Shown here: positions 1 to 11,002 of the stretch, piece by piece
Position numbering within the stretch: the stretch's first letter is position 1
Layout of the letters: every line of letters begins with the position of its first letter
Origin: Bacteroidota bacterium
GTDB taxonomy: Bacteria; Bacteroidota; Bacteroidia; UKL13-3
DNA: 64,000 nt
Assembly: GCA_027487835.1 (NCBI GenBank)
Contig: JAIYCU010000044.1
Location: 1-64,000 of the forward strand
Reading direction: 5' to 3'
Notes under the pieces: generated by a model
Databases searched by the model: none
Told to the model about the DNA's origin: nothing
The model's input: the letters and a program-made list of their open reading frames with translations, nothing else
Position numbers and translations under genes: made by a program

Positions 1-492
1 ACAGGCGCTTCACATGTAACTGGTGAAGGCCACGGAAATTTCTTGTTGTATAATAACCTTGGTAAAAACCAATTGCCAGATTATAGAAAATTATATTACG
101 ATGTTTTGTTTAAATTTAAAGGTTTTTCTTTGTTAGCAGAGTATGCCATTGCCACAGCTAAAATGCCCGAAATAGCGTATTCAAATACAGCAGGATTAAA
201 CCGACTTGAACAAACACAAATCAGTGAGTATTTGGCCTTGGGAAGAGGTTTTAATACTCATGCAAGTTATGTGTTTCGTAAAAAATATGGCATTGATGTT
301 CGGTATGCTACAACCACAAGAGAGTTTAGTGCAAATGAAAATTCTGTCATAAAAGACCAGCAAGAACTAACTTATGGCATTACCAAATATGTGCAAGCAA
401 ACCATCTTAAAATCAATGCTTCATTAACTCATTTAACAGTTGGTTCAAACCGTACCTTACTTGGAGCCTTGTTTGTGCAATTGGTGTTTTAA
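1..492 (+). CDS. Outer-membrane porin, C-terminal part (5' end outside window)
   Basis: The reading frame is open from the first base, so this is the last 163 codons of a longer gene. The protein shows alternating polar/aromatic strands (LLAEYAIATAK, HASYVFRKKYGIDVRYATTT, LKINASLTHLTVG) and ends in LVF, as expected for the last strand of an outer-membrane beta-barrel with terminal Phe. It resembles the C-terminus of phosphate-selective-porin-like proteins (OprO/OprP) of Bacteroidota; the exact substrate cannot be judged. It stops 9 bases before the dicarboxylate symporter gene, so the two probably form an operon for uptake across both membranes. Confidence 0.6.
   Translation, partial: TGASHVTGEGHGNFLLYNNLGKNQLPDYRKLYYDVLFKFKGFSLLAEYAIATAKMPEIAYSNTAGLNRLEQTQISEYLALGRGFNTHASYVFRKKYGIDVRYATTTREFSANENSVIKDQQELTYGITKYVQANHLKINASLTHLTVGSNRTLLGALFVQLVF
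442..451. repeat. GGTTCAAACC word, copy 1
   Basis: Exact copy of the iterated 10-bp word, inside the porin gene, read as G-S-N-R. Confidence 0.85.
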
Positions 493-501
493 GTTTTTGA
501 C

Positions 502-1713
502 ATGCTAAACAAAATAAAAGGCTTATTTAGCCACCTTACTTTTTATGTGGTAATTGCAATAGTTTCGGGTGTTTTGCTTGGGCATTACTACCCGCAACAA
601 GGATTGCAATTAGAGTTTATTGGTAGCTATTTCATCAAAGTCATTAAGCTATTTATTCCACCCATTATTTTCTTTACCATCGTTTTGGGAATTTGTTACA
701 TGGGCGATTTAAAAAAGGTAGGTAAGATTGGATTAAAAGCCTTAATTTATTTTGAGATTATTTCTACCTTTTCTTTGGCCATTGGGATTGCAGTAGCATT
801 AATCATGAAGCCAGGAAACATTGATAGAACCAAGATTCCAATTGGCGATGTTTCAAAGTTTACAGCGCAAGGCAAAGTGCCTTTTAGTTGGTTAAATTTT
901 TTACAATCCAATATTACTATTCAAATTTTATTAGTTGCTATTGTTGTTGGTATCGTTTTGAACCTATTCTCTCGCAAAGACCCAATCATCAAAGCATTTA
1001 CCTATACCTCAAAGAAGGTTTTTTTATTGCTAAAGTTTGTGATGTATTTTGCGCCTGTTGCAGCCTTTGGCGCCATGGCTTTTACGGTTGCAAAATTTGG
1101 TTTGCATACTTTAATTCCTTTGGGTAAACTCATGTTGAGTGTTTATCTCACCATGGCCATATTTATCTTTTTGGTATTGGGTGCCATCATGAAGTACTAC
1201 GGCCTAAGTAATTGGAAGTTTCTTAAATACATTAAAGAAGAAATATTGGTGGTATTAGGAACTTCTTCTTCTGAATCTGCTTTGCCTAGTATTATGCATA
1301 AATTGGAACAAGCAGGATGTAAAAAAACTATTGTAGGATTGGTTATTCCAGTAGGATATTCCTTTAACCTTGATGGTACTTCAATTTACCTTTCAATGGC
1401 AACCATTTTTTTGGCTCAAATCTATAATGTGCCACTTAGTTTGGGAGAAATTTTAATGATGTTAGGCATCCTTATGATTACCTCTAAAGGCGCGGCAGGC
1501 GTTACGGGAAGTGGTTTTGTGGTGCTTGCTTCTACACTCGCTTCAATGGGAACTATTCCATTAGAAGGATTGGGCTTTTTGTGGGGTGTAGATAAGTTTA
1601 TGAGCGAAGGAAGGTCGATTACCAACTTAATTGGAAATGCAGTGGCAACCCTTGTAATTGCTAAAAACGAAAATGAGTTTGATGAACAAACTTTTAAAGA
1701 GGTAGTCGGCTAG
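502..1713 (+). CDS. Dicarboxylate/amino acid:cation symporter (DctA/GltP family)
   Basis: 403-residue inner-membrane protein, slightly shorter than E. coli DctA. It has many hydrophobic segments, the serine-rich re-entrant motif TSSSESALP (254-262), the NLDGT motif (289-293), the second re-entrant loop SKGAAGVTGSG (about 328-338), and D364, R371 and N375 in the last transport helix. The family moves C4-dicarboxylates or acidic amino acids with Na+ or H+. The substrate cannot be settled from sequence. It directly follows the porin fragment and ends at a strong bidirectional terminator. Confidence 0.9.
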   Translation: MLNKIKGLFSHLTFYVVIAIVSGVLLGHYYPQQGLQLEFIGSYFIKVIKLFIPPIIFFTIVLGICYMGDLKKVGKIGLKALIYFEIISTFSLAIGIAVALIMKPGNIDRTKIPIGDVSKFTAQGKVPFSWLNFLQSNITIQILLVAIVVGIVLNLFSRKDPIIKAFTYTSKKVFLLLKFVMYFAPVAAFGAMAFTVAKFGLHTLIPLGKLMLSVYLTMAIFIFLVLGAIMKYYGLSNWKFLKYIKEEILVVLGTSSSESALPSIMHKLEQAGCKKTIVGLVIPVGYSFNLDGTSIYLSMATIFLAQIYNVPLSLGEILMMLGILMITSKGAAGVTGSGFVVLASTLASMGTIPLEGLGFLWGVDKFMSEGRSITNLIGNAVATLVIAKNENEFDEQTFKEVVG

Positions 1714-1736
1714 ATCTACTAATTTCTAACGTATAA

Positions 1737-1770
1737 AAAAACGACTAATCTTTTCAGATTAGTCGTTTTT
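1737..1770. terminator. Bidirectional intrinsic terminator
   Basis: Stem AACGACTAATCT / AGATTAGTCGTT with a TTTC loop, extended by A:T pairs and flanked by A6 and T5 runs. It sits between two convergent genes and can serve both the symporter and the T9SS cargo gene. Confidence 0.9.
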
Positions 1771-1775
1771 ATTTT

Positions 1776-1785
1776 GGTTTGAACC
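1776..1785. repeat. GGTTTGAACC word, copy 2
   Basis: Intergenic copy between the terminator and the end of the T9SS cargo gene; flanks are TT and AA. Confidence 0.85.
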
Positions 1786-1790
1786 AAATG

Positions 1791-3080
1791 TTAATTCGTT
1801 TTTATTATACGCTTAGTGATAACTGCATCACCTTGGTAAATTTTAATAAAATAGATACCATTTAATAATTCTTTTGCATCTATTTTAGCAACATTGCTTT
1901 GTAAGTTTTCGCTTAACACAATCTTACCTTGAATATCCACTACCTCTGCACGAGTGATTGTGGCATTGGTTGTAATTTCGATATAATCATTAAAAGGATT
2001 AGGCGTTAAATTAGTTTCTGTATTGGTGTTATTAACTGAAACAACATGCGAGTAAGTTGATTTGCCATCAAAATCTATTTGATTTAATCTATAGAATGCG
2101 TTTGCATTACTGTGATGTTCAAAGTGATACTTTTGAGTTGTTTTTGAATTCCCAACACCTTCTGCAAATCCAATGGTTTCAAAATTAATTCCGTCTTGGC
2201 TACTTTCGATTTCAAATCCTTTGTTGTTGATTTCGGAAGCGGTTGTCCAAGTTAATAGGGTGGTTTGATGCTCTGTTATTTGACCTTCAAAAGAGGTTAA
2301 ATTTACTGGCAATGCTGAGTTGGCCCATGAGTTAGAAACGCGGATTCCGTCAATTGTTCCAACCATGGTGCTTCCAGTTGGATGTTGCCTAATGGCAACT
2401 GCGTTTATTCTAGCTAAATCACCGGCAGTGACGTCTACAGCAATTACTTGTGCAGTAGTAGGTTCAGTTGAAGGAACACCACTTGTGAAAATATAGCATC
2501 TAACAGAATCTTGCGCTAACGGGTCAAAGGTGTATTTCATCACAACAAGAATTGGTGTATTTAAAGGGTAATCTACGCTTGAATAGGCCGGCGTAGAGGT
2601 AGCTGATTTGCCTAAGCCAATGTTAAAAGTATTAGCAACAGATCCATTTCTAATAAATTGTCTGCCTCTAAATGCAGTCATAAAACTTGTATCTAATAAG
2701 TGAAAGAAATATGCATCAGAACTTCCTGCGCCACCTGCGTTTGAAATATTTAGTAAATAGGAGATATAAACACTACCTGTATTAAATGAGGTTGTAACTC
2801 TATTAACATCTTCTGCAAATCCGGTAGCAAATGTAAATCCGGCTGAACCTCCAATGCCAGAAGATGAATATCCTGCATAACTCAAGGAAGTTCCTTTGTA
2901 AGTAACTGGTCCAGTAGTTCCGCTATGTCTTCTCCAAACATTGCCACCACGAGCAGGATTGGTAAGCGTGTCTGCACTTGTGCCAGAAATAGCGCCATAG
3001 TCAAAGTTTTCAATGGTCATTTGTGCGTTCAAATTCATTGAAAGCACTAGTAAAATAAAAGGTAAAATAATTCTTTTCAT
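1791..3080 (-). CDS. Secreted protein with T9SS type A C-terminal sorting domain
   Basis: 429 residues. A Sec signal peptide (about residues 1-19, MKRIILPFILLVLSMNLNA) precedes a region rich in G, S and T. Residues about 255-340 (LPVNLTSFEGQ... TTLLTWTTASEINNKGFEIE) match the fibronectin-like segment common before sorting domains. The last 80 residues (NLTPNPFNDYIEI... GIYFIKIY... KRIIK) are a typical por-secretion tail. The protein should be exported by Sec and then by T9SS to the surface. The N-terminal 230 residues have no function I can name. It follows a lipoprotein hydrolase gene by 21 bases on the same strand. Confidence 0.85.
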   Translation of the reverse strand: MKRIILPFILLVLSMNLNAQMTIENFDYGAISGTSADTLTNPARGGNVWRRHSGTTGPVTYKGTSLSYAGYSSSGIGGSAGFTFATGFAEDVNRVTTSFNTGSVYISYLLNISNAGGAGSSDAYFFHLLDTSFMTAFRGRQFIRNGSVANTFNIGLGKSATSTPAYSSVDYPLNTPILVVMKYTFDPLAQDSVRCYIFTSGVPSTEPTTAQVIAVDVTAGDLARINAVAIRQHPTGSTMVGTIDGIRVSNSWANSALPVNLTSFEGQITEHQTTLLTWTTASEINNKGFEIESSQDGINFETIGFAEGVGNSKTTQKYHFEHHSNANAFYRLNQIDFDGKSTYSHVVSVNNTNTETNLTPNPFNDYIEITTNATITRAEVVDIQGKIVLSENLQSNVAKIDAKELLNGIYFIKIYQGDAVITKRIIKTN

Positions 3081-3101
3081 ATACGTTTTTTTAAATTTAA
3101 T

Positions 3102-4049
3102 TTATTGATATAAATAAATAGCCGCCGCATTTGAGGTGCCTATAAAATCATGGGCTATGCCTTGCAGCGAATAGTACCTCCAATTAAAAGCAGCACCCTG
3201 TTGAGTTGCGGCTAAGCGTGACTGCGTGTAAAAATATTGTGCTCGCTCCAATCGGTTCAAACCTTGTTTATCTACAATTTCATTGTGCCTTAGGTCGGCA
3301 GAATTTGGATCTATATCTTTTGAACCAATAAGTATAAACACCTTTTTATTGAATAGGTTTTTGTAGGAAGAAAATTCAACAGGGCTTTTTTTGGTTCCGT
3401 AGGGGAAATCTATTGAAGGATCGAACATCGTATACCAACCTGCTGCTGCTGAAACTAGTCTATTAACCCGCGCCAATGGCTTGTAAAGCAAAAAACGGTG
3501 TGCAAATTGTCCGCCTGCAGAATGTCCAAATACATCATAAGTATTGAGAGAACTGCCTATTTTAAGCTTCATGAAGTCGAATATTGGCTCTATCACCGAG
3601 AAGGTCCAAATACTTTCTGCATTAAGGCTGCTTGCACTTGGGTTGTCACCATCTACAAATACATTTCCTAAATTGTAACTATCCGCTGTTGGAAAAAATT
3701 GTTCACTAAACTGTGGGGCAATTATTATAAAACCAAATTTATTTGCATTGGCTATCATCGCGTCCCTGCTAAATTTCGCATCTCTATCGGTTCCATGAAG
3801 TACAAATAATATTGGTGTTAAATTAGTTGCATTGGCTGGAATATGGTAAAAAAGTTGAATGGGCTTGTCCTTTAAAGGTGCATATTCGCTAAAGGCAATG
3901 TCTGCAGTGCCCTTTATTTTACTAGGTATTTCGCTAGTGTCAATTTTTACTTTATCAGGTACCTTGGATTCTTCTTGTTTGCAAGCCGCAATACAAGAAA
4001 GCATTAGGAAGGATATAAGCGCAAAAGCCAGTTGACTTTTTCCATTCAT
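3102..4049 (-). CDS. Lipoprotein alpha/beta hydrolase (esterase-like)
   Basis: 315 residues. The signal peptide ends in a lipobox at CIAAC (C23), so the protein is probably membrane-anchored. The alpha/beta-hydrolase core shows the oxyanion strand ILFVLHGTD (about 80-88), the nucleophile elbow GHSAGG (S177), a likely acid at SKDIDP (about 245) and a late histidine at GIAHDF. It resembles PHB-depolymerase-like or prolyl-oligopeptidase-like esterases. The substrate is unknown. It lies upstream of the T9SS cargo gene on the same strand, so the two are probably co-transcribed. Confidence 0.75.
   Translation of the reverse strand: MNGKSQLAFALISFLMLSCIAACKQEESKVPDKVKIDTSEIPSKIKGTADIAFSEYAPLKDKPIQLFYHIPANATNLTPILFVLHGTDRDAKFSRDAMIANANKFGFIIIAPQFSEQFFPTADSYNLGNVFVDGDNPSASSLNAESIWTFSVIEPIFDFMKLKIGSSLNTYDVFGHSAGGQFAHRFLLYKPLARVNRLVSAAAGWYTMFDPSIDFPYGTKKSPVEFSSYKNLFNKKVFILIGSKDIDPNSADLRHNEIVDKQGLNRLERAQYFYTQSRLAATQQGAAFNWRYYSLQGIAHDFIGTSNAAAIYLYQ
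3254..3263. repeat. GGTTCAAACC word, copy 3
   Basis: Inside the esterase gene; the coding strand reads Q-G-L-N-R. Confidence 0.85.
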
Positions 4050-4241
4050 TTTGTAAAATTAAGCGTTTAATAGGTTTCAATAAACATACCAATAATAATT
4101 TAATTGGCATACCAAAATTGATTTTATTTTATCGAGATTGTGTGATTTATGCAAACTATTCAGGATAGTATGTAATGCTATAACTCTTGTAGATTGAGAA
4201 TTTTGAGGCGTGAAAATACATTCACAATTAATTCCTTTCAC

Positions 4242-5249
4242 ATGAAAAAAATATTTCTTCAGTTTATATTTTTATCGGCCTTGGTTTGTTCCTATAAATT
4301 AAACTACGGACAAGCACCTAGCCTTGGCACCACCTCCAATTTTGCAATATTCACTGGTTCTGGAGCGGTAACAAATGTTGGTATTTCGCAAATTACAGGG
4401 CACGTTGGCTCTAATGTAGGTGCAGGCACCAATTTTGGAAATGTTAACGGGGTTATGCACTCGCAAAATGCAACAACTGCAGCTTGTGCTGCAGATTTAT
4501 TGACCGCTGCAAGTCAGATTACCAGTGCAACTAATACCTTTTTTCCTTCTTCCTCCTTAGGTAATGGCGATACTTTAACAGCTGGCGTATATTCAATTGC
4601 AGCAGCAGCAACGCTAAGTTCAACTTTATATCTAAATGCACAAGGCAATCCTAATGCTGTTTTTATTTTTAAAATAGGGGGCACCTTTGCTACAAATGCC
4701 AATGCTAAGGTTCGCTTGATTAATGGTGCTCAAGCCTGTAAGGTATTTTGGAAAATAGATGGTGCTGTAACCATGGCTTCTGGAACGTATATGAGGGGAA
4801 CTGTTATTGCAAATAATGCGGCCATTAGCATGGCAACAGGCGATACCCTTGAAGGAAGAATACTATCTACCTCTGGTGCTATTGCAGTAAGTGGCGTTAT
4901 GGTTTATACGCCTATTGGTTGCGGAAGTCCTTATTTAACAGGCCCGATTGCTCCTAATTTAGCAAGTACCGCTGTTTATACCTTCTTATCTGGTATTGGT
5001 CCTGTTACAAATACAGGAACCTCTACAGTTGTAGGAGATGTTGGCACAAACCTCGGATTAACAACAGGCTTTAATCCCCTTTTAGTTACTGGTACAATTC
5101 ATCCAATTCCCGATGCCTCAACAAGTACAGCAGCCTCCGACTTAACTGCTGTTTACAACTATCTTAGTTTATTGCCATATGATATAGAATTATTATATCC
5201 GGCTCAATTTGGCAGAAATTATGAACCAATATCCAAAAATGGTGGTTGA
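4242..5249 (+). pseudogene. DUF3494 (ice-binding-protein-like) gene, truncated in its second domain
   Basis: I start it at the ATG at 4242, which gives a signal peptide (MKKIFLQFIFLSALVCSYKL...GQ); an upstream in-frame ATG at 4194 adds 16 unlikely residues. Residues about 22-225 form one complete DUF3494 domain (LGTTSNFAIFTGSGAVTN..., NAVFIFKIGG, FWKIDGAVTMASGTYMRGTVIANNAAI). A second repeat starts near residue 235 and runs as far as PYDIELLYPAQFG, then breaks off about 60 residues in. The frame runs out of phase into an OmpA-like segment. DUF3494 proteins bind ice or act as adhesins; whether this one still works is doubtful. Confidence 0.75.
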
Positions 5250-5496
5250 AGTACATTCTTATACAGATTGCAGGGCAAGTGAGGGATATAATCAATTGCT
5301 TTCAGATCGCAGGGCTCAAACAACCTTAAAGTATATCAAGAAAAATATTTCAAAACCTTCGCGTATAAGTGGCAAGGGTTATGGTGAAACCAAATTATCT
5401 ATTAATTGTCCTTGCGAAAACAATAATATCACAAATTGCACGGATGAGGAATACAAGGCCCAACGAAATACTGAATTTATCATTATCTCTCAATAA
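5203..5496 (+). pseudogene. OmpA-like C-terminal domain remnant
   Basis: Beginning at LNLAEIMNQYP, this frame encodes the C-terminal half of an OmpA peptidoglycan-binding domain: MVVEVHSYTDCRASEGYN, LSDRRAQ, GKGYGETK, and a final RNTEFIII. The typical start of the domain and any upstream gene are missing, and an in-frame stop at 5185 precedes it. It abuts the truncated DUF3494 frame at about 5205-5213, one frame away, which suggests that a deletion joined two genes. It could be expressed only after a frameshift. Confidence 0.75.
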
Positions 5497-5559
5497 TGCT
5501 TATTAGTTGAATACATTCTTTATAGGTTCAACACAACTGATATTGAAAATATAAGTTCA

Positions 5560-5569
5560 GGTTTGAACC
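5560..5569. repeat. GGTTTGAACC word, copy 4
   Basis: Intergenic, just upstream of the terminator between the OmpA remnant and the next hydrolase. Confidence 0.85.
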
Positions 5570-5585
5570 TACTTAAAGCTTAGCA

Positions 5586-5615
5586 AAAGAGGCTATCTTA
5601 AAAGATAGTCTCTTT
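5586..5615. terminator. Intrinsic terminator between convergent genes
   Basis: Stem AAAGAGGCTATCTT / AAGATAGTCTCTTT with one G:T pair and a 2-base loop, A-rich on one side and T-rich on the other, so it can act in both directions. Confidence 0.85.
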
Positions 5616-5644
5616 GCATTTAAGATAGTATCAATTAGTTTGGG

Positions 5645-6502
5645 TTACCTGCTATTAATAAAACTATTAAAAGCTTCTTTGGCCATCGAATCTACAAACA
5701 GAGCGGCATGGCCAACGCCTTCCAGTTCTAAAAACTGTGCATTTTTACAGTTGGTACATGCTAAAACTTCTGCTTTAAATGTTGGCCAGGAATACATCTG
5801 AATCGGAGTGTCGTTTAGTCCTTGTACAAATAGTATATCAGATTTGAAACCTTTGGTGAAGTTTAGCAATGAACGTTGCATATAGGCACTAGGATTAGTG
5901 CTGGTGCTGCCATAGGTGTTTTTTAGTTGTGTGCAGGTAATACCTTTAGGGATATTTCCATTTTCTTCCAATTGACAACGATACACTAAGTTTAGTGGCC
6001 CAGGACCATTGGCAATAACGCCATTGGTTTGGTGTATGGTATTAAGCCTTGTCACCAAATAGCCACCTTGTGAATGGCCACATAAAAATATCTTTTTAAC
6101 TTTTACTCCTAAGGCATTGCTGGCCTCATTCTTAACCCAAAGTAAAGCAGCTTCTGCTTCACGAATATTGTCGCCCATGAGCAGATCTTCTTCTGGATAT
6201 GCCACACTTACTAGCATCATGTCTTTTCGGTCTAATAGCGATTTTGCCTTTTCTAATAAGGAAGTTGAAGCATCAAGAATTAAACTGTCAAAAATTACAG
6301 TGCCGTGAAACAAAATTAAAACATCAACTTCCTCAAGTGCAGGTTTATCAATTACCAAATCTACCTTAACTTGGTTATAGCTTATTGACTTTACTCCGAC
6401 AAAGGCCTCTGGCTTTTCTGGAGTATTGCTAGTCTTTGCCTCCTCTTTATGGCAAGAGAGAATTGAAGTAAGTAATAATATAAGTATAAGAATTTTTTGC
6501 AT
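5645..6502 (-). CDS. Lipoprotein alpha/beta hydrolase
   Basis: 285 residues with a lipoprotein signal (lipobox SILSC, C17). Hydrolase motifs are the oxyanion strand DVLILFHGT (about 60-68), the nucleophile elbow CGHSQGG (S144), an acid candidate in FVQGLNDTP, and a late histidine in GVGHAALF. It looks like a small prolyl-oligopeptidase/acetyl-xylan-esterase-like enzyme, but I cannot assign a substrate. It is the second esterase lipoprotein within 3.5 kb; the two share the fold but little sequence. The next gene upstream, an acyltransferase, ends 33 bases away on the same strand. Confidence 0.75.
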   Translation of the reverse strand: MQKILILILLLTSILSCHKEEAKTSNTPEKPEAFVGVKSISYNQVKVDLVIDKPALEEVDVLILFHGTVIFDSLILDASTSLLEKAKSLLDRKDMMLVSVAYPEEDLLMGDNIREAEAALLWVKNEASNALGVKVKKIFLCGHSQGGYLVTRLNTIHQTNGVIANGPGPLNLVYRCQLEENGNIPKGITCTQLKNTYGSTSTNPSAYMQRSLLNFTKGFKSDILFVQGLNDTPIQMYSWPTFKAEVLACTNCKNAQFLELEGVGHAALFVDSMAKEAFNSFINSR

Positions 6503-6535
6503 GATGGTTGAATGTTTTTAGAATTGTTATAACGT

Positions 6536-7579
6536 TTAAAGAGGTAGAGTGCTGCTAATTCTTTTTGAAATCTCAAAGAAATGTTTCCCAAATAATTTAT
6601 TTAAGCCATGCACCAAGCTAATGGATAATATTATAACCGCTATGGGTACCCAAAACGCTACAAATCCATTAAGTTTAAAAAACAATTGAAAGGCAATGGC
6701 TATTGGTAAGTGAAACAGATATATAAAATAGGTAGATTCTATTTGATAGCTTGAAAATTTCAGTTTGACAGTTTCCATTAAACGAATAAAAACGATACAA
6801 CCTGTAAAGGCACAAGTTCCAAAAAAGAAGGGTTGAAGCAAGAAGTCCAAAAAGGCTTTTTCGTGTTGTTGATAAGCCAAAATATAAAGGCCAGAAATTG
6901 ATAGGTTCAGCAAGAAAACCAAAGCCCAAATCCACCATTTCCCAAGGTTGCTGAAGTTAGTTTTATTGCGCCATACCATTCCTAATAAATAGTATCCAAA
7001 ATAATAGAAGAAGCTAGGTAGATTTATACTCAAATAAATTGGATTTCGAATCATGGCTTCTGAATTTATGCTTAAACCAAATACGAGGCATGCAATGGCA
7101 ATAAATGAATTCTTTACAGGAATAAAGTGAGCCAAAAAGGAGAATAGGATTAAGTAAAAGATAAACCAATAATGTGCCAATGGTAAGCCATGGATTTGTA
7201 AGTCTTGAGCAAACATGACAGCAGCCTTTCCAATAGCAGCCTCATTTGGGAAGGCATAACATGCTTTTAACAGGTAGAGTAATGGAATTGTAAAAATGGC
7301 TGAAAGTAAACTCGGAAAAAACAACCGTGATTTAACCCTTTGGTAAACACCTTTTAAACTGTTTGATTTATCCGAAGTAAAGTATCCTGATAGAAACATG
7401 AAAGCTTCCATTACAAAGGCATGTAAAACAAAAATGGTATAATCAAAAACTTTTGCATTTGGCTCTGATTGAAAGAACCACATGCCATGGTTGTATACCA
7501 TATATGGCACCAAACAATGAATGCAACACCGCATATAATTGCCAATTACTCTCGCGTTATTAAACGAATTAATTTGCAT
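6536..7579 (-). CDS. Integral membrane acyltransferase (acyltransferase-3/OpgC-like)
   Basis: 347 residues with about ten hydrophobic helices. The N-terminal RVIGNYMRCCIHCLVPYMVYNH and the EAFMFLSGYF segment match the membrane acyltransferase family, whose members usually carry a catalytic His in the first helix pair and move acyl groups onto sugars or peptidoglycan from the cytoplasmic side. The start overlaps the end of the GH3-like gene by 11 bases, so the two are translationally coupled. The acyl acceptor is unknown. Confidence 0.75.
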   Translation of the reverse strand: MQINSFNNARVIGNYMRCCIHCLVPYMVYNHGMWFFQSEPNAKVFDYTIFVLHAFVMEAFMFLSGYFTSDKSNSLKGVYQRVKSRLFFPSLLSAIFTIPLLYLLKACYAFPNEAAIGKAAVMFAQDLQIHGLPLAHYWFIFYLILFSFLAHFIPVKNSFIAIACLVFGLSINSEAMIRNPIYLSINLPSFFYYFGYYLLGMVWRNKTNFSNLGKWWIWALVFLLNLSISGLYILAYQQHEKAFLDFLLQPFFFGTCAFTGCIVFIRLMETVKLKFSSYQIESTYFIYLFHLPIAIAFQLFFKLNGFVAFWVPIAVIILSISLVHGLNKLFGKHFFEISKRISSTLPL

Positions 7580-8969
7580 GGGCAGGGTGAATTAGATTCA
7601 TGAAATAGGGCTCATTTACAGGAAGTACTAAAGGTATTTTAGACTGGGCATGCAGTTTGTTTTTGTTGGCTAAATATTGCATAAAGGTTGATTCATTAAG
7701 AGGAATCAATTTTGCACACAGCATGCCACTAGTGTTTAATCTATAATCTTTATAAGTAACGTTATTGTTGGCAATTATTTCATCTAATTTGGAATGGCTA
7801 ATTTCTATGCCTTTACTGGTACAAATAAACCAATAATGCCTGCACTCGTTACCGTTTTTATAGGGCAATATGGTAATAAATTTTATATCTGAATTTACTT
7901 CAGCAGATAATTGTAGTACAATCAATTGGATTTGTTCAGCAGTAACTAACTCTCCCATAATATTTATAGTGTCTGATACCCTTCCACTAAATTTAAAATG
8001 ATTTTCATTTATAAAAGAAATACAATCTCCAGTTTTGTATCTCCATAACCCAGTGTTTGTAGAAACTACTAATTGGTATCTAATGCCAGGAATTGGATTA
8101 TTGACCAATGTTTCATCTGGGTTGGTAGATAATAATTCAAAGAATAATCCTGATTTAAAATTTAACCTCATTCCAGGTTCATTTGGTAATTGGTAACCAT
8201 AAAACCCTTCAGTGGCAACAAAGGTCTCGAGAAATGGAATATCTCCCAAGGAACTTCTAAGCCCTGTTAAATAAGGTGTAATGTCCATTCCAGAATACAT
8301 ATAAAATTTACTATTGGGCCAAATGGATTTTAAGTCATGGCCATGCACTTTTTTCATACTTTCCGAAACCTGCATAATCCAATTGGGAAAGCCCGAAATA
8401 CCATATACATCCCAACTTGTAGCATGATCAGAGATATAATTTAATAATTCATTTAAGTTTAGGTTATTGGTTTTCGATAGATTGGGTACAATCCTGTTTT
8501 TAATATAGGATGGTGCCATGTTTAATGCATAAAAGGACATGTTATCGGCTACTAAACCCGCAGTTAGTTGATAGTCGGATTGAGACCCAATAAAGAAGGC
8601 CTTTTTAAATAGAATATCTTGGAAGTTAATTAATCCATTTTTTCTTAGAACATTCATGTATTTGATAAAGCTATTCCGATTGCTTTTCATAAATTCTTGC
8701 ATGATGGGAATATGCTTAGATCCATTTTTGTCGGTGCCAGAAGTTTTACCCAATAGGACAATTTTACCTGGCCAAGTTGATTGATAGGAATGTTCAAAAT
8801 CGCCCCAATATTGTTTATGGGATTGGTAATCTCCAATGGGAACCATTTGCTGAAAATCGTCTACCGATTTTATCTTAGAAAATTGATAGGTTCTTCCAAA
8901 ATCTGAATTGGCCCCTTTACTCAATAATTGGCTTAAGGTTATCTTTTGTTTTGTAATAAAGTTTGACAT
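7569..8969 (-). CDS. GH3-type acyl-adenylating (acid-amido synthetase-like) enzyme
   Basis: 466 residues from the ATG at 8969 (MSNFITKQ); a longer frame adds 14 residues. The adenylation motif 1 [17 protein letters not shown], a second ATP site [15 protein letters not shown], and the hinge [13 protein letters not shown] match the GH3 family. Plant members conjugate amino acids to carboxylic-acid hormones through an acyl-adenylate; bacterial members are poorly known. The strongly conserved frame and coupling to a membrane acyltransferase suggest that the activated acyl product is transferred onward, which is inference. Confidence 0.8.
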
Positions 8970-8999
8970 CAGTATATAAAAGCAATTAAAAGGCCTAGC

Positions 9000-9007
9000 C
9001 AAAAATA
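9000..9007 (-). promoter_or_regulatory. Putative -7 box for the GH3-like gene
   Basis: TATTTTTG on the minus strand fits TAnnTTTG, 31 bases upstream of the chosen start. No -33 box is obvious. Confidence 0.35.
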
Positions 9008-9060
9008 TCAAAGTTCATTCACATTTGGGCATATCAGCTACTTTACTTACCTTCGTTGCC

Positions 9061-9144
9061 GTGATTCAGCTAATTATTTTGAATCACCGCGGAATTGGTC
9101 ACCTGAGTTTTTTGAAATTGAGAGCCGTTTTCTGCTCTCATTTC
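9061..9144 (+). promoter_or_regulatory. Two-hairpin leader of the RhlE helicase gene
   Basis: The first stem pairs GTGATTCA (9061-9068) with TGAATCAC (9080-9087). The second pairs GAAAT-T-GAGAGC (9114-9125, one bulged T) with GCTCTCATTTC (9134-9144) and ends two bases before the ATG. A hairpin that close to the start could limit initiation; RNA-helicase genes are often autoregulated through their leaders. Regulation here is inference. Confidence 0.45.
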
Positions 9145-9146
9145 TT

Positions 9147-10421
9147 ATGAAAAAAATGTTTAGCGAGCTCAATATCATTGAGCCCATCTTAGCAGCCTTA
9201 AAACACGAAGGCTACACCCATCCCACACCTATTCAAGAACAAACCATCCCCCTTTTATTACAAGGAAAAGATGTGTTGGGTTGTGCCCAAACAGGTACTG
9301 GTAAAACCGCTTCTTTTGCCATTCCTATCTTGCAATTGTTATATCAAAATGCTGGAAAAGAAGTTGGTTCAAAACGAAAAATAAAAGCCTTGGTACTTAC
9401 GCCTACGCGTGAATTGGCCATTCAAATTGATGACAGCTTTGCAGCCTATGGCAAAAACCTTGGGCTAAAGCATACTGTAATTTTTGGTGGCGTTTCGCAA
9501 CATAGTCAGGTAGATAGGTTGAACCGAGGCATTGATATTTTAATTGCCACTCCTGGCCGTTTGCTCGATTTAATTCAACAAGGCTTTGTACACCTGCAAC
9601 ACATTCAATTCTTTGTGTTAGATGAAGCCGATAGGATGTTGGATATGGGCTTTGTAAATGATGTAAAAAAGGTAATTGCCAAAATTCCTAAAAAGCGCCA
9701 ATCACTTTTCTTCTCGGCTACCATGCCGCCAGTGATTCAAAGTTTAGCCGATACGATTTTAATTCACCCTTCAAAGGTAGAAGTTACACCTGTCTCTTCA
9801 ACCGCCGATACCATTCAGCAGTTTCTATATTATGTAAGCAAAACGGATAAAAAACGCTTGCTCATTCATTTACTTGAAACAGAAAAAATGCACAGTGTAT
9901 TGGTGTTTACGCGCACCAAACATGGTGCTGATAGGGTAGTGAAGGATTTAGATAAAGCAGGCATTAAAGCCGCGGCCATTCATGGCAATAAATCTCAAAA
10001 TGCCCGTCAGAATGCCTTAAATGATTTTAAATCTGGGAAGATAAAAGTGCTTTTGGCAACGGATATCGCTTCTCGCGGCATCGACATTGACGACCTATCC
10101 CATGTGATAAATTATGAACTTCCCAATATCCCCGAAACGTATGTTCACCGGATAGGTAGAACAGGAAGGGCAGGCGCTAGTGGTATCTCATTCTCTTTCT
10201 GCGAAGAAGAAGAGTTTGGCGAGTTAAAAGACATTCAAAAATTAATTGGTAAAAACATTCCAGTGATTGATACCCATCCTTTTGTTTTGGATCCTGCTTA
10301 TATGGATAGTGGCTCTTCTAACCATAAGGCAAAGCCTAAAAAGCAATTGCCTCCACACAATAGGCCGGCGGCTTCTAAGCCAGAGCACAAGCCCAAAAGG
10401 CATTGGGGCGGTAGAAGGTAG
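9147..10421 (+). CDS. rhlE: DEAD-box RNA helicase, RhlE type
   Basis: 424 residues. It has the Q motif (THPTPIQEQ, about 24-32), Walker A AQTGTGKT (47-54), PTREL (86-90), TPGR, DEAD (159-162), SAT (190-192) and [10 protein letters not shown] (about 331). A basic, proline-rich tail ([12 protein letters not shown]...HWGGRR) follows, as in RhlE proteins, where it helps RNA binding. The enzyme unwinds short RNA duplexes in ribosome assembly or RNA decay. The hairpin leader just upstream suggests post-transcriptional control. Confidence 0.92.
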
Positions 10422-10542
10422 GAAAACACGCTTTCGGATTTTTCTTTCTAATTATCTTCTTGGGCAATCTTGTTTTTCTTTCCGTAATCATATTTATCGG
10501 ATTTTGTTTTTGCTTAAAAACGTTTAAAAAGCATGTATTTTA

Positions 10543-10550
10543 TAGCTTTG
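10543..10550 (+). promoter_or_regulatory. -7 box of the ORF6N gene
   Basis: TAGCTTTG matches TAnnTTTG and lies 4 bases before the ATG, so a transcript would be nearly leaderless. No well-spaced -33 box is seen. Confidence 0.4.
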
Positions 10551-10554
10551 AATA

Positions 10555-11002
10555 ATGACAGAAGGCAAACAAATTGAAATACATTTTATTTCATCAATGA
10601 TTTTTGAATTAAGAGGTAAACAGATAATATTAGATTGTGATTTAGCACTTTTATATGGAATAGAAACTAAACGATTAAAAGAATCGGTAAGAAGAAATGT
10701 ATCACGATTCCCGGATGATTTCATGTTTGAACTTACCAAAGAAGAATACCATTTTCTAAGGACGCAATTTGCGTCCTTAGAAAATGGTAGAGGGAAATAT
10801 AGCAAATACCTACCCTTTGCCTTCACTGAGCAGGGGTTGCAATGGTTTCTAGTGTAATAAATAGTAATACGGCAATACAAATGAGTATTCAAATTATGAG
10901 AACCTTTTTGATGCAATTAGTTTTCTCCTTAAAAAAGAAACTGAGGAAAGTGCACAAAGAGAAAGGAAATCAATTGGGTTTAAACCTGACATGGCTAAAT
11001 AA
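10555..11002 (+). pseudogene. ORF6N-domain protein broken by two frameshifts
   Basis: The first 94 codons give an ORF6N domain (LDCDLALLYGIETKRLKESV, FPDDFMFELTKEE, GRGKYSKYLPFAFTEQG). One base is missing at the G run 10833-10836: the next frame continues with AMVSSVINSNTAIQMSIQIMRTF. At the T run 10905-10909 the frame shifts again and continues DAISFLLKKETEE... GFKPDMAK to a stop at 11000-11002. ORF6N proteins are DNA-binding-type proteins spread by phages and islands. The gene sits at the edge of an accessory stretch. Homopolymer sequencing errors are an alternative cause. Confidence 0.8.

Follow-up and report, generated by a model that had tools for sequence, protein, structure and literature searches.

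Results

Gene Organization at the Locus

The window analyzed here is a 64,000-nucleotide stretch of contig JAIYCU010000044.1 from a Bacteroidota bacterium. A gene encoding a predicted GH3-family protein overlaps one encoding a predicted acyltransferase, and two α/β-hydrolase genes lie nearby:

7569-8969, minus strand: GH3 gene (P0001), ATG start, 466 aa
6536-7579, minus strand: Acyl_transf_3 (AT3) gene (P0002), 347 aa
7569-7579, minus strand: overlap of the GH3 stop and the AT3 start, 11 bases, ATGCAAATTAA on the coding strand
5645-6502, minus strand: α/β-hydrolase lipoprotein gene (P0003), beginning 33 bases after the AT3 stop
3102-4049, minus strand: lipoprotein-like α/β-hydrolase gene (P0004)
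4120-9045: segment of 4.9 kb absent from the sister genome G014

This layout agrees with the original prediction, which had placed a GH3 gene and a membrane acyltransferase gene at 6536-8969 with an 11-base overlap and two lipoprotein esterases in the vicinity; Pfam GH3 and Acyl_transf_3 matches bear out the two assignments. The frames of P0001 (466 codons) and P0002 (347 codons) are both intact, and an alternative TTG start for P0001 at 9011 would add 14 aa. Same-strand overlaps of 11 bases usually point to an operon, and this one fits co-transcription and translational coupling. P0003 is probably co-transcribed with the pair in the window; it bears a lipoprotein-type signal (by eye), and both hydrolases gave only sub-threshold Pfam matches.

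The codon usage of P0001 and P0002 is ordinary against the rest of the window, with no sign of foreign usage relative to the other window genes, and their GC fractions (0.341 and 0.333, respectively) are at the low end among those genes. Between 4050 and 9200, promoter-like sites were not in excess (14, against a shuffle mean of 21.1), and terminator-like sites numbered 7 (shuffle mean 3.8). Flanking repeats, sought as marks of insertion, amounted to short imperfect matches, the best being 24 nt at 83% and lying across two gene starts. An RNA element and a defense system were also considered; the former was dropped when 3000-11000 gave no Rfam match, and the latter when PADLOC returned no match.

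A Variable Site in the Genus

The 4.9-kb segment of the window holds an ice-binding-like gene, P0003, P0002, and P0001. In its place, G014 carries about 1.03 kb that encodes a pentapeptide-repeat protein and a DUF2200 protein. G014 is collinear with the window over 3-4119 (81% nucleotide identity) and 9046-10421 (87%), and the DEAD-box helicases of the two share 97% protein identity. The position upstream of the helicase was compared at 16 other loci of the genus: an oxidoreductase-like gene (N-terminus MLSFWEK, by eye) occupies it in 8, G014 has its two genes, 4 have other genes, and 3 have nothing in the stretch inspected. The site between P0004 and the helicase is thus variable among genus members. 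Two further features were seen in this region. On the plus strand of the window (4194-5249 and 5209-5496), the ice-binding-like (DUF3494) frame passes, with a change of reading frame, into the C-terminal part of an OmpA domain, an arrangement that resembles a broken or fused gene with the joint at about 5200. Downstream of the helicase (window about 10420-10550; L223:16683-18334), G014 has an extra HipA-like gene with a small helix-turn-helix partner (by eye) that is not in the window.

The pair and the two hydrolases had been proposed to form a small surface-modification locus. This grouping was abandoned: P0004 is part of the backbone collinear with G014, which itself has no pair, and P0003 is found in nine other family genomes (63-74% identity) in varied settings. 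Those nine genomes contain no relative of P0002, and neither a GH3 nor an AT3 gene was seen beside P0003 when their open frames were inspected by eye.

P0001 Is a Divergent Member of the GH3 Family

P0001 scored above the Pfam cut-off of 23.6 for GH3 (PF03321; 71.7 bits, 8.2e-20) and GH3_M (29.5 bits, 8e-7) and slightly short of it for GH3_C (21.6 bits). The sequence and its alignments contain all three GH3 nucleotide-binding motifs:

8715-8744, minus strand: motif I, nucleotide-binding, residues 76-85 (from sequence and alignments)
8205-8225, minus strand: motif II, TFVATEG, residues 249-255 (from alignments)
8025-8051, minus strand: motif III, residues 307-315 (from alignments)

S77 in motif I aligns with the essential S115 of OlsH, a characterized bacterial GH3-like enzyme. 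In motif II, T253 replaces the usual serine and the glutamate (E254) is kept. The ATP-site serine, glutamate, and lysine are all retained, and the kept residues include S77, G78, T79, K85, E254, G255, Y311, G314, D315, R330, and K444. In a 47-row GH3 alignment, P0001 keeps 47 of the 68 near-invariant columns and is changed in the remaining 21; each of the other 46 rows is changed in at most 7 (P0001 was excluded from the consensus for its own count, and the other rows' counts exclude themselves and P0001).

A structure model of P0001 (pLDDT 86.6) has a confident GH3 fold, to which it leans because the input alignment consisted of 47 GH3 rows. Plant GH3 structures took the top ranks for this model in Foldseek and VIA-align (VIA-align Z about 30, 15-19% identity), and by sequence the matches to PDB chains were marginal (JAR1, E 0.0009). 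In phylogenetic trees, the terminal branch of P0001 measured 4.75 changes per column, or 6.79 when two other long rows were left out; because this end branch is so long, no placement is claimed. Judged by domains, motifs, and alignments, P0001 is a real but very divergent member of the GH3 family, and it is one of three GH3 genes in its genome, the others being two ordinary copies.

P0002 Is a Divergent AT3 by Domain Match

P0002 matched Pfam Acyl_transf_3 (PF01757) with 57.5 bits, against a cut-off of 31. It scored 31.8 bits (single-sequence E-value, high bias) against a profile built from 42 AT3 sequences, drawn from family loci and three AT3s of its own genome after fragments of 300 aa or less were dropped. 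Published AT3 motifs include R-X10-H in the first helix and RXXR at the third (PMC9833829 and PMC9558356), for which P0002 offers one candidate:

7517-7552, minus strand: R10-X10-H21, fitting the AT3 R-X10-H motif; the profile alignment instead pairs H31 with the histidine column

The exact RXXR motif is absent from the P0002 sequence; by profile alignment the second arginine is kept and the first is a valine, and the LSG(Y) motif is kept as well. A structure model with a pLDDT of 47.8 was set aside. Since the domain match stands, P0002 is called a divergent AT3 by sequence, with no claim of AT3 activity.

Distribution of the Two Genes and of the Pair

Of the 64 family genomes, all of which were searched and which also make up the order-level sample, 61 gave one or more matches to P0001 at E≤1e-5. 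The best of these matches, apart from P0001 itself, reached 182 bits and 29% identity. The best in the phylum and class samples (395 genomes each, partial and possibly overlapping) reached 194 and 203 bits with 30-33% identity; no relative in the genomes searched exceeds 33%. A scan of GTDB genomes with the GH3 alignment gave best 80 loci that are 25-30% identical to P0001, and 7 of 72,556 plasmid records matched it at 23-27% identity. Exact-peptide scans of genome contigs and viral contigs, a method that detects close relatives only, found no relative of P0001. Two more deeply divergent family GH3 genes were encountered in differing settings, L056:6302-7882 (G024 C23), which sits in a run of same-strand genes, and L058:6503-7969 (G033 C163).

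Some AT3 is held by at least 57 of the 64 family genomes. At E≤1e-8, P0002 was unmatched in the 63 other family genomes and in the rest of the 395-genome phylum sample. Among the 395 class genomes, two other weak matches appeared at E≤0.001 (3.5e-5 and 8.1e-5), and no GH3 gene was seen near either in the stretch inspected by eye. P0002 was found in none of the 72,556 plasmid records, and its exact-peptide scan of viral contigs, again sensitive to close relatives only, returned no relative.

The original prediction called for checking the conservation of the pair across genomes. No second pair of the P0001/P0002 type was found in the 64 family genomes or in the phylum and class samples (395 each). 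Among the matches listed, the only adjacent GH3 and AT3 genes in the family are those of the window, the next nearest being 11.2 kb apart; this count compared 122 GH3 places with at least 150 AT3 places and is blind to neighbors hidden by small contigs. The paralogous GH3 genes all lack an adjoining AT3. Proximity was also assessed at 100 GH3 loci (20 from the family plus the best 80 from the GTDB scan). The open frames up to 4 kb away from the best GH3 frame at each locus numbered 768 in all, and a single one of them, in a Siphonobacter, is an AT3, about 2.25 kb away. A literature search covering few subscription journals listed no paper on a GH3-AT3 pair.

A conserved pair was dropped as unproven, given that P0002 had no second-genome match at E≤1e-8 and that the best match to P0001 was 203 bits at 32% identity. 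Because neither an ortholog of P0001 or P0002 nor a second pair was found in the genomes searched, these sequence comparisons neither confirm conservation nor, by the original criterion of the genes separating in relatives, strictly refute it.

The same loci showed recurring neighbors of ordinary Bacteroidota GH3 genes. One cluster of related same-strand genes lies beside them at 46 of the 100 loci, a site-2-protease-like gene is near GH3 at 37, and a Dxr-like gene directly follows GH3 at L044 and L163. These neighbors may inform GH3 function more than the window pair does.

Discussion

The most likely explanation, with a probability of roughly 0.4 and hence tentative, is that P0001 and P0002 form an accessory two-gene unit, present in the window genome and not in the sampled relatives, in which a divergent GH3 acyl-acid amido synthetase is coupled to an AT3 that acylates its product or another acceptor. 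P0001 would turn a carboxylic acid into an adenylate (the only bacterial precedent uses a free fatty acid) and then acylate the amine of an amino acid or a comparable compound. P0002 would be produced by coupled translation, sit in the membrane, and acylate a hydroxyl, probably with acyl-CoA as the donor; the acceptor would be the P0001 product or a different lipid or glycan. We infer adenylation, amide formation, and acyl transfer by analogy with related enzymes, and the substrate is not readable from sequence. A joint product is possible. That both proteins act on one molecule, and on which, is a guess, because the pair was found in no other genome searched.

The GH3 domains, motifs, and modeled fold, the AT3 domain, the overlap, the intact frames with their ordinary codon usage, the precedent of OlsH with its acyltransferase OlsI, and the lipoamino acids and N-acyl amino acids reported from Bacteroidetes speak for this explanation. 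Against it stand the single sighting of the pair, the fact that OlsI is not an AT3, the 21 of 68 GH3 columns changed in P0001, and the missing exact RXXR and ambiguous R-X10-H of P0002; in addition, AT3 proteins are mostly reported to transfer acyl groups to sugars outside the cytoplasm. It is a substantial possibility that the two are chance neighbors, accessory genes that entered a variable site separately or together, that share no pathway, and whose overlap reflects tight gene packing. The site between P0004 and the helicase holds the block in the window, the pentapeptide-repeat and DUF2200 genes in G014, and the oxidoreductase-like gene in most others, and the scarcity of AT3 genes near GH3 (none near another family GH3 among the matches listed, and 1 of 100 loci within 4 kb) points the same way. 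However, the same-strand overlap is of the kind usual for operons, and the unusual divergence common to P0001 and P0002 fits joint arrival.

That divergence could also mark decaying or inactive copies under weak selection, a third GH3 together with a degenerate AT3. The long end branch of P0001 and its lost near-invariant columns, the missing RXXR of P0002, and the two ordinary GH3 genes that remain in the genome are all compatible with such decay; it is nevertheless unlikely, as both frames are intact and P0001 keeps the conserved residues listed above, from S77 to K444. An alternative division of labor would have P0001 convert an unusual acid into an adenylate or CoA ester for use by the AT3 in the manner of DltA/DltB. 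P0001 does belong to the wider adenylating superfamily, and AT3 proteins require an activated acyl donor (PMC9833829). This arrangement is quite improbable: characterized GH3 enzymes make amides, OlsH is reported to require no CoA and no carrier protein (PMC12493201), and inspection by eye of the open frames from 40 aa upward between 5500 and 9146 showed no carrier-like small gene.

Within the preferred explanation, in which P0001 is an accessory ligase that forms acyl amides and P0002 the acyltransferase coupled to it, what may be new is a divergent member of the known GH3 family with a possible AT3 partner. It is doubtful that the two enzymes make up a route, so far undescribed, to an acylated N-acyl-amino-acid lipid, either with an AT3 in the role that OlsI has in planctomycetes or with a GH3 that supplies the acyl donor of the AT3. 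P0001 is a reasonable target for assay, since its AT3 partner hints at a two-step product; because the pairing was seen once, it is weak as functional evidence. To our knowledge, the majority of bacterial GH3 genes belong to Bacteroidota and lack an experimentally tested substrate.

The original statement that bacterial GH3 enzymes have almost no assigned role is outdated. A single bacterial case was found to have been worked out, OlsH from the planctomycete Singulisphaera acidiphila, a GH3-like lyso-ornithine lipid synthetase that makes N-acyl-ornithine from fatty acids and ornithine and works with a separate O-acyltransferase, OlsI (PMC12493201, 2025). According to that report, OlsH depends on the motif I serine and tolerates the S293A change at the motif II serine, and its authors doubt an N-acyl-ornithine product for Bacteroidota homologs, favoring other amino acids; lipoamino acids and N-acyl amino acids have been reported from Bacteroidetes (PMC8433624). 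P0001 and OlsH belong to the same family and share the serine of motif I, the glutamate of motif II, and the pattern of motif III. OlsH (NF052613) is also its best NCBIfam match, but at 173.1 bits, against a cut-off of 620, P0001 is not an OlsH equivalog. The paralogs from its own genome (369 and 416 bits) and L036 (407) also miss this cut-off, in line with the view of the OlsH authors on Bacteroidota homologs (PMC12493201). The partners seem to differ as well, an AT3 in the window and an α/β hydrolase in the case of OlsI, although P0003, next to the pair, is also an α/β hydrolase, with a lipoprotein-type signal.

Compared with ordinary Bacteroidota GH3 proteins, represented by the paralogs of the host genome (G000 C24 and C40), P0001 shares family, fold, and ATP-site residues but has a shorter N terminus, at most 25-33% identity, and a very long branch; it also lies outside their neighborhoods, the C24 copy being followed by a Dxr-like gene. 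The modeled fold is like that of the plant GH3 acyl acid amido synthetases JAR1, GH3.15, and PBS3, although identity is 15-19% and the sequence match to PDB chains is marginal. P0002 resembles the AT3 acyltransferases Oac and OafB (PF01757) in its domain and, by profile, in LSG(Y) and the second RXXR arginine; it differs from them in its missing first RXXR arginine and the uncertain register of R-X10-H, and the genomes searched gave no close relative of it.
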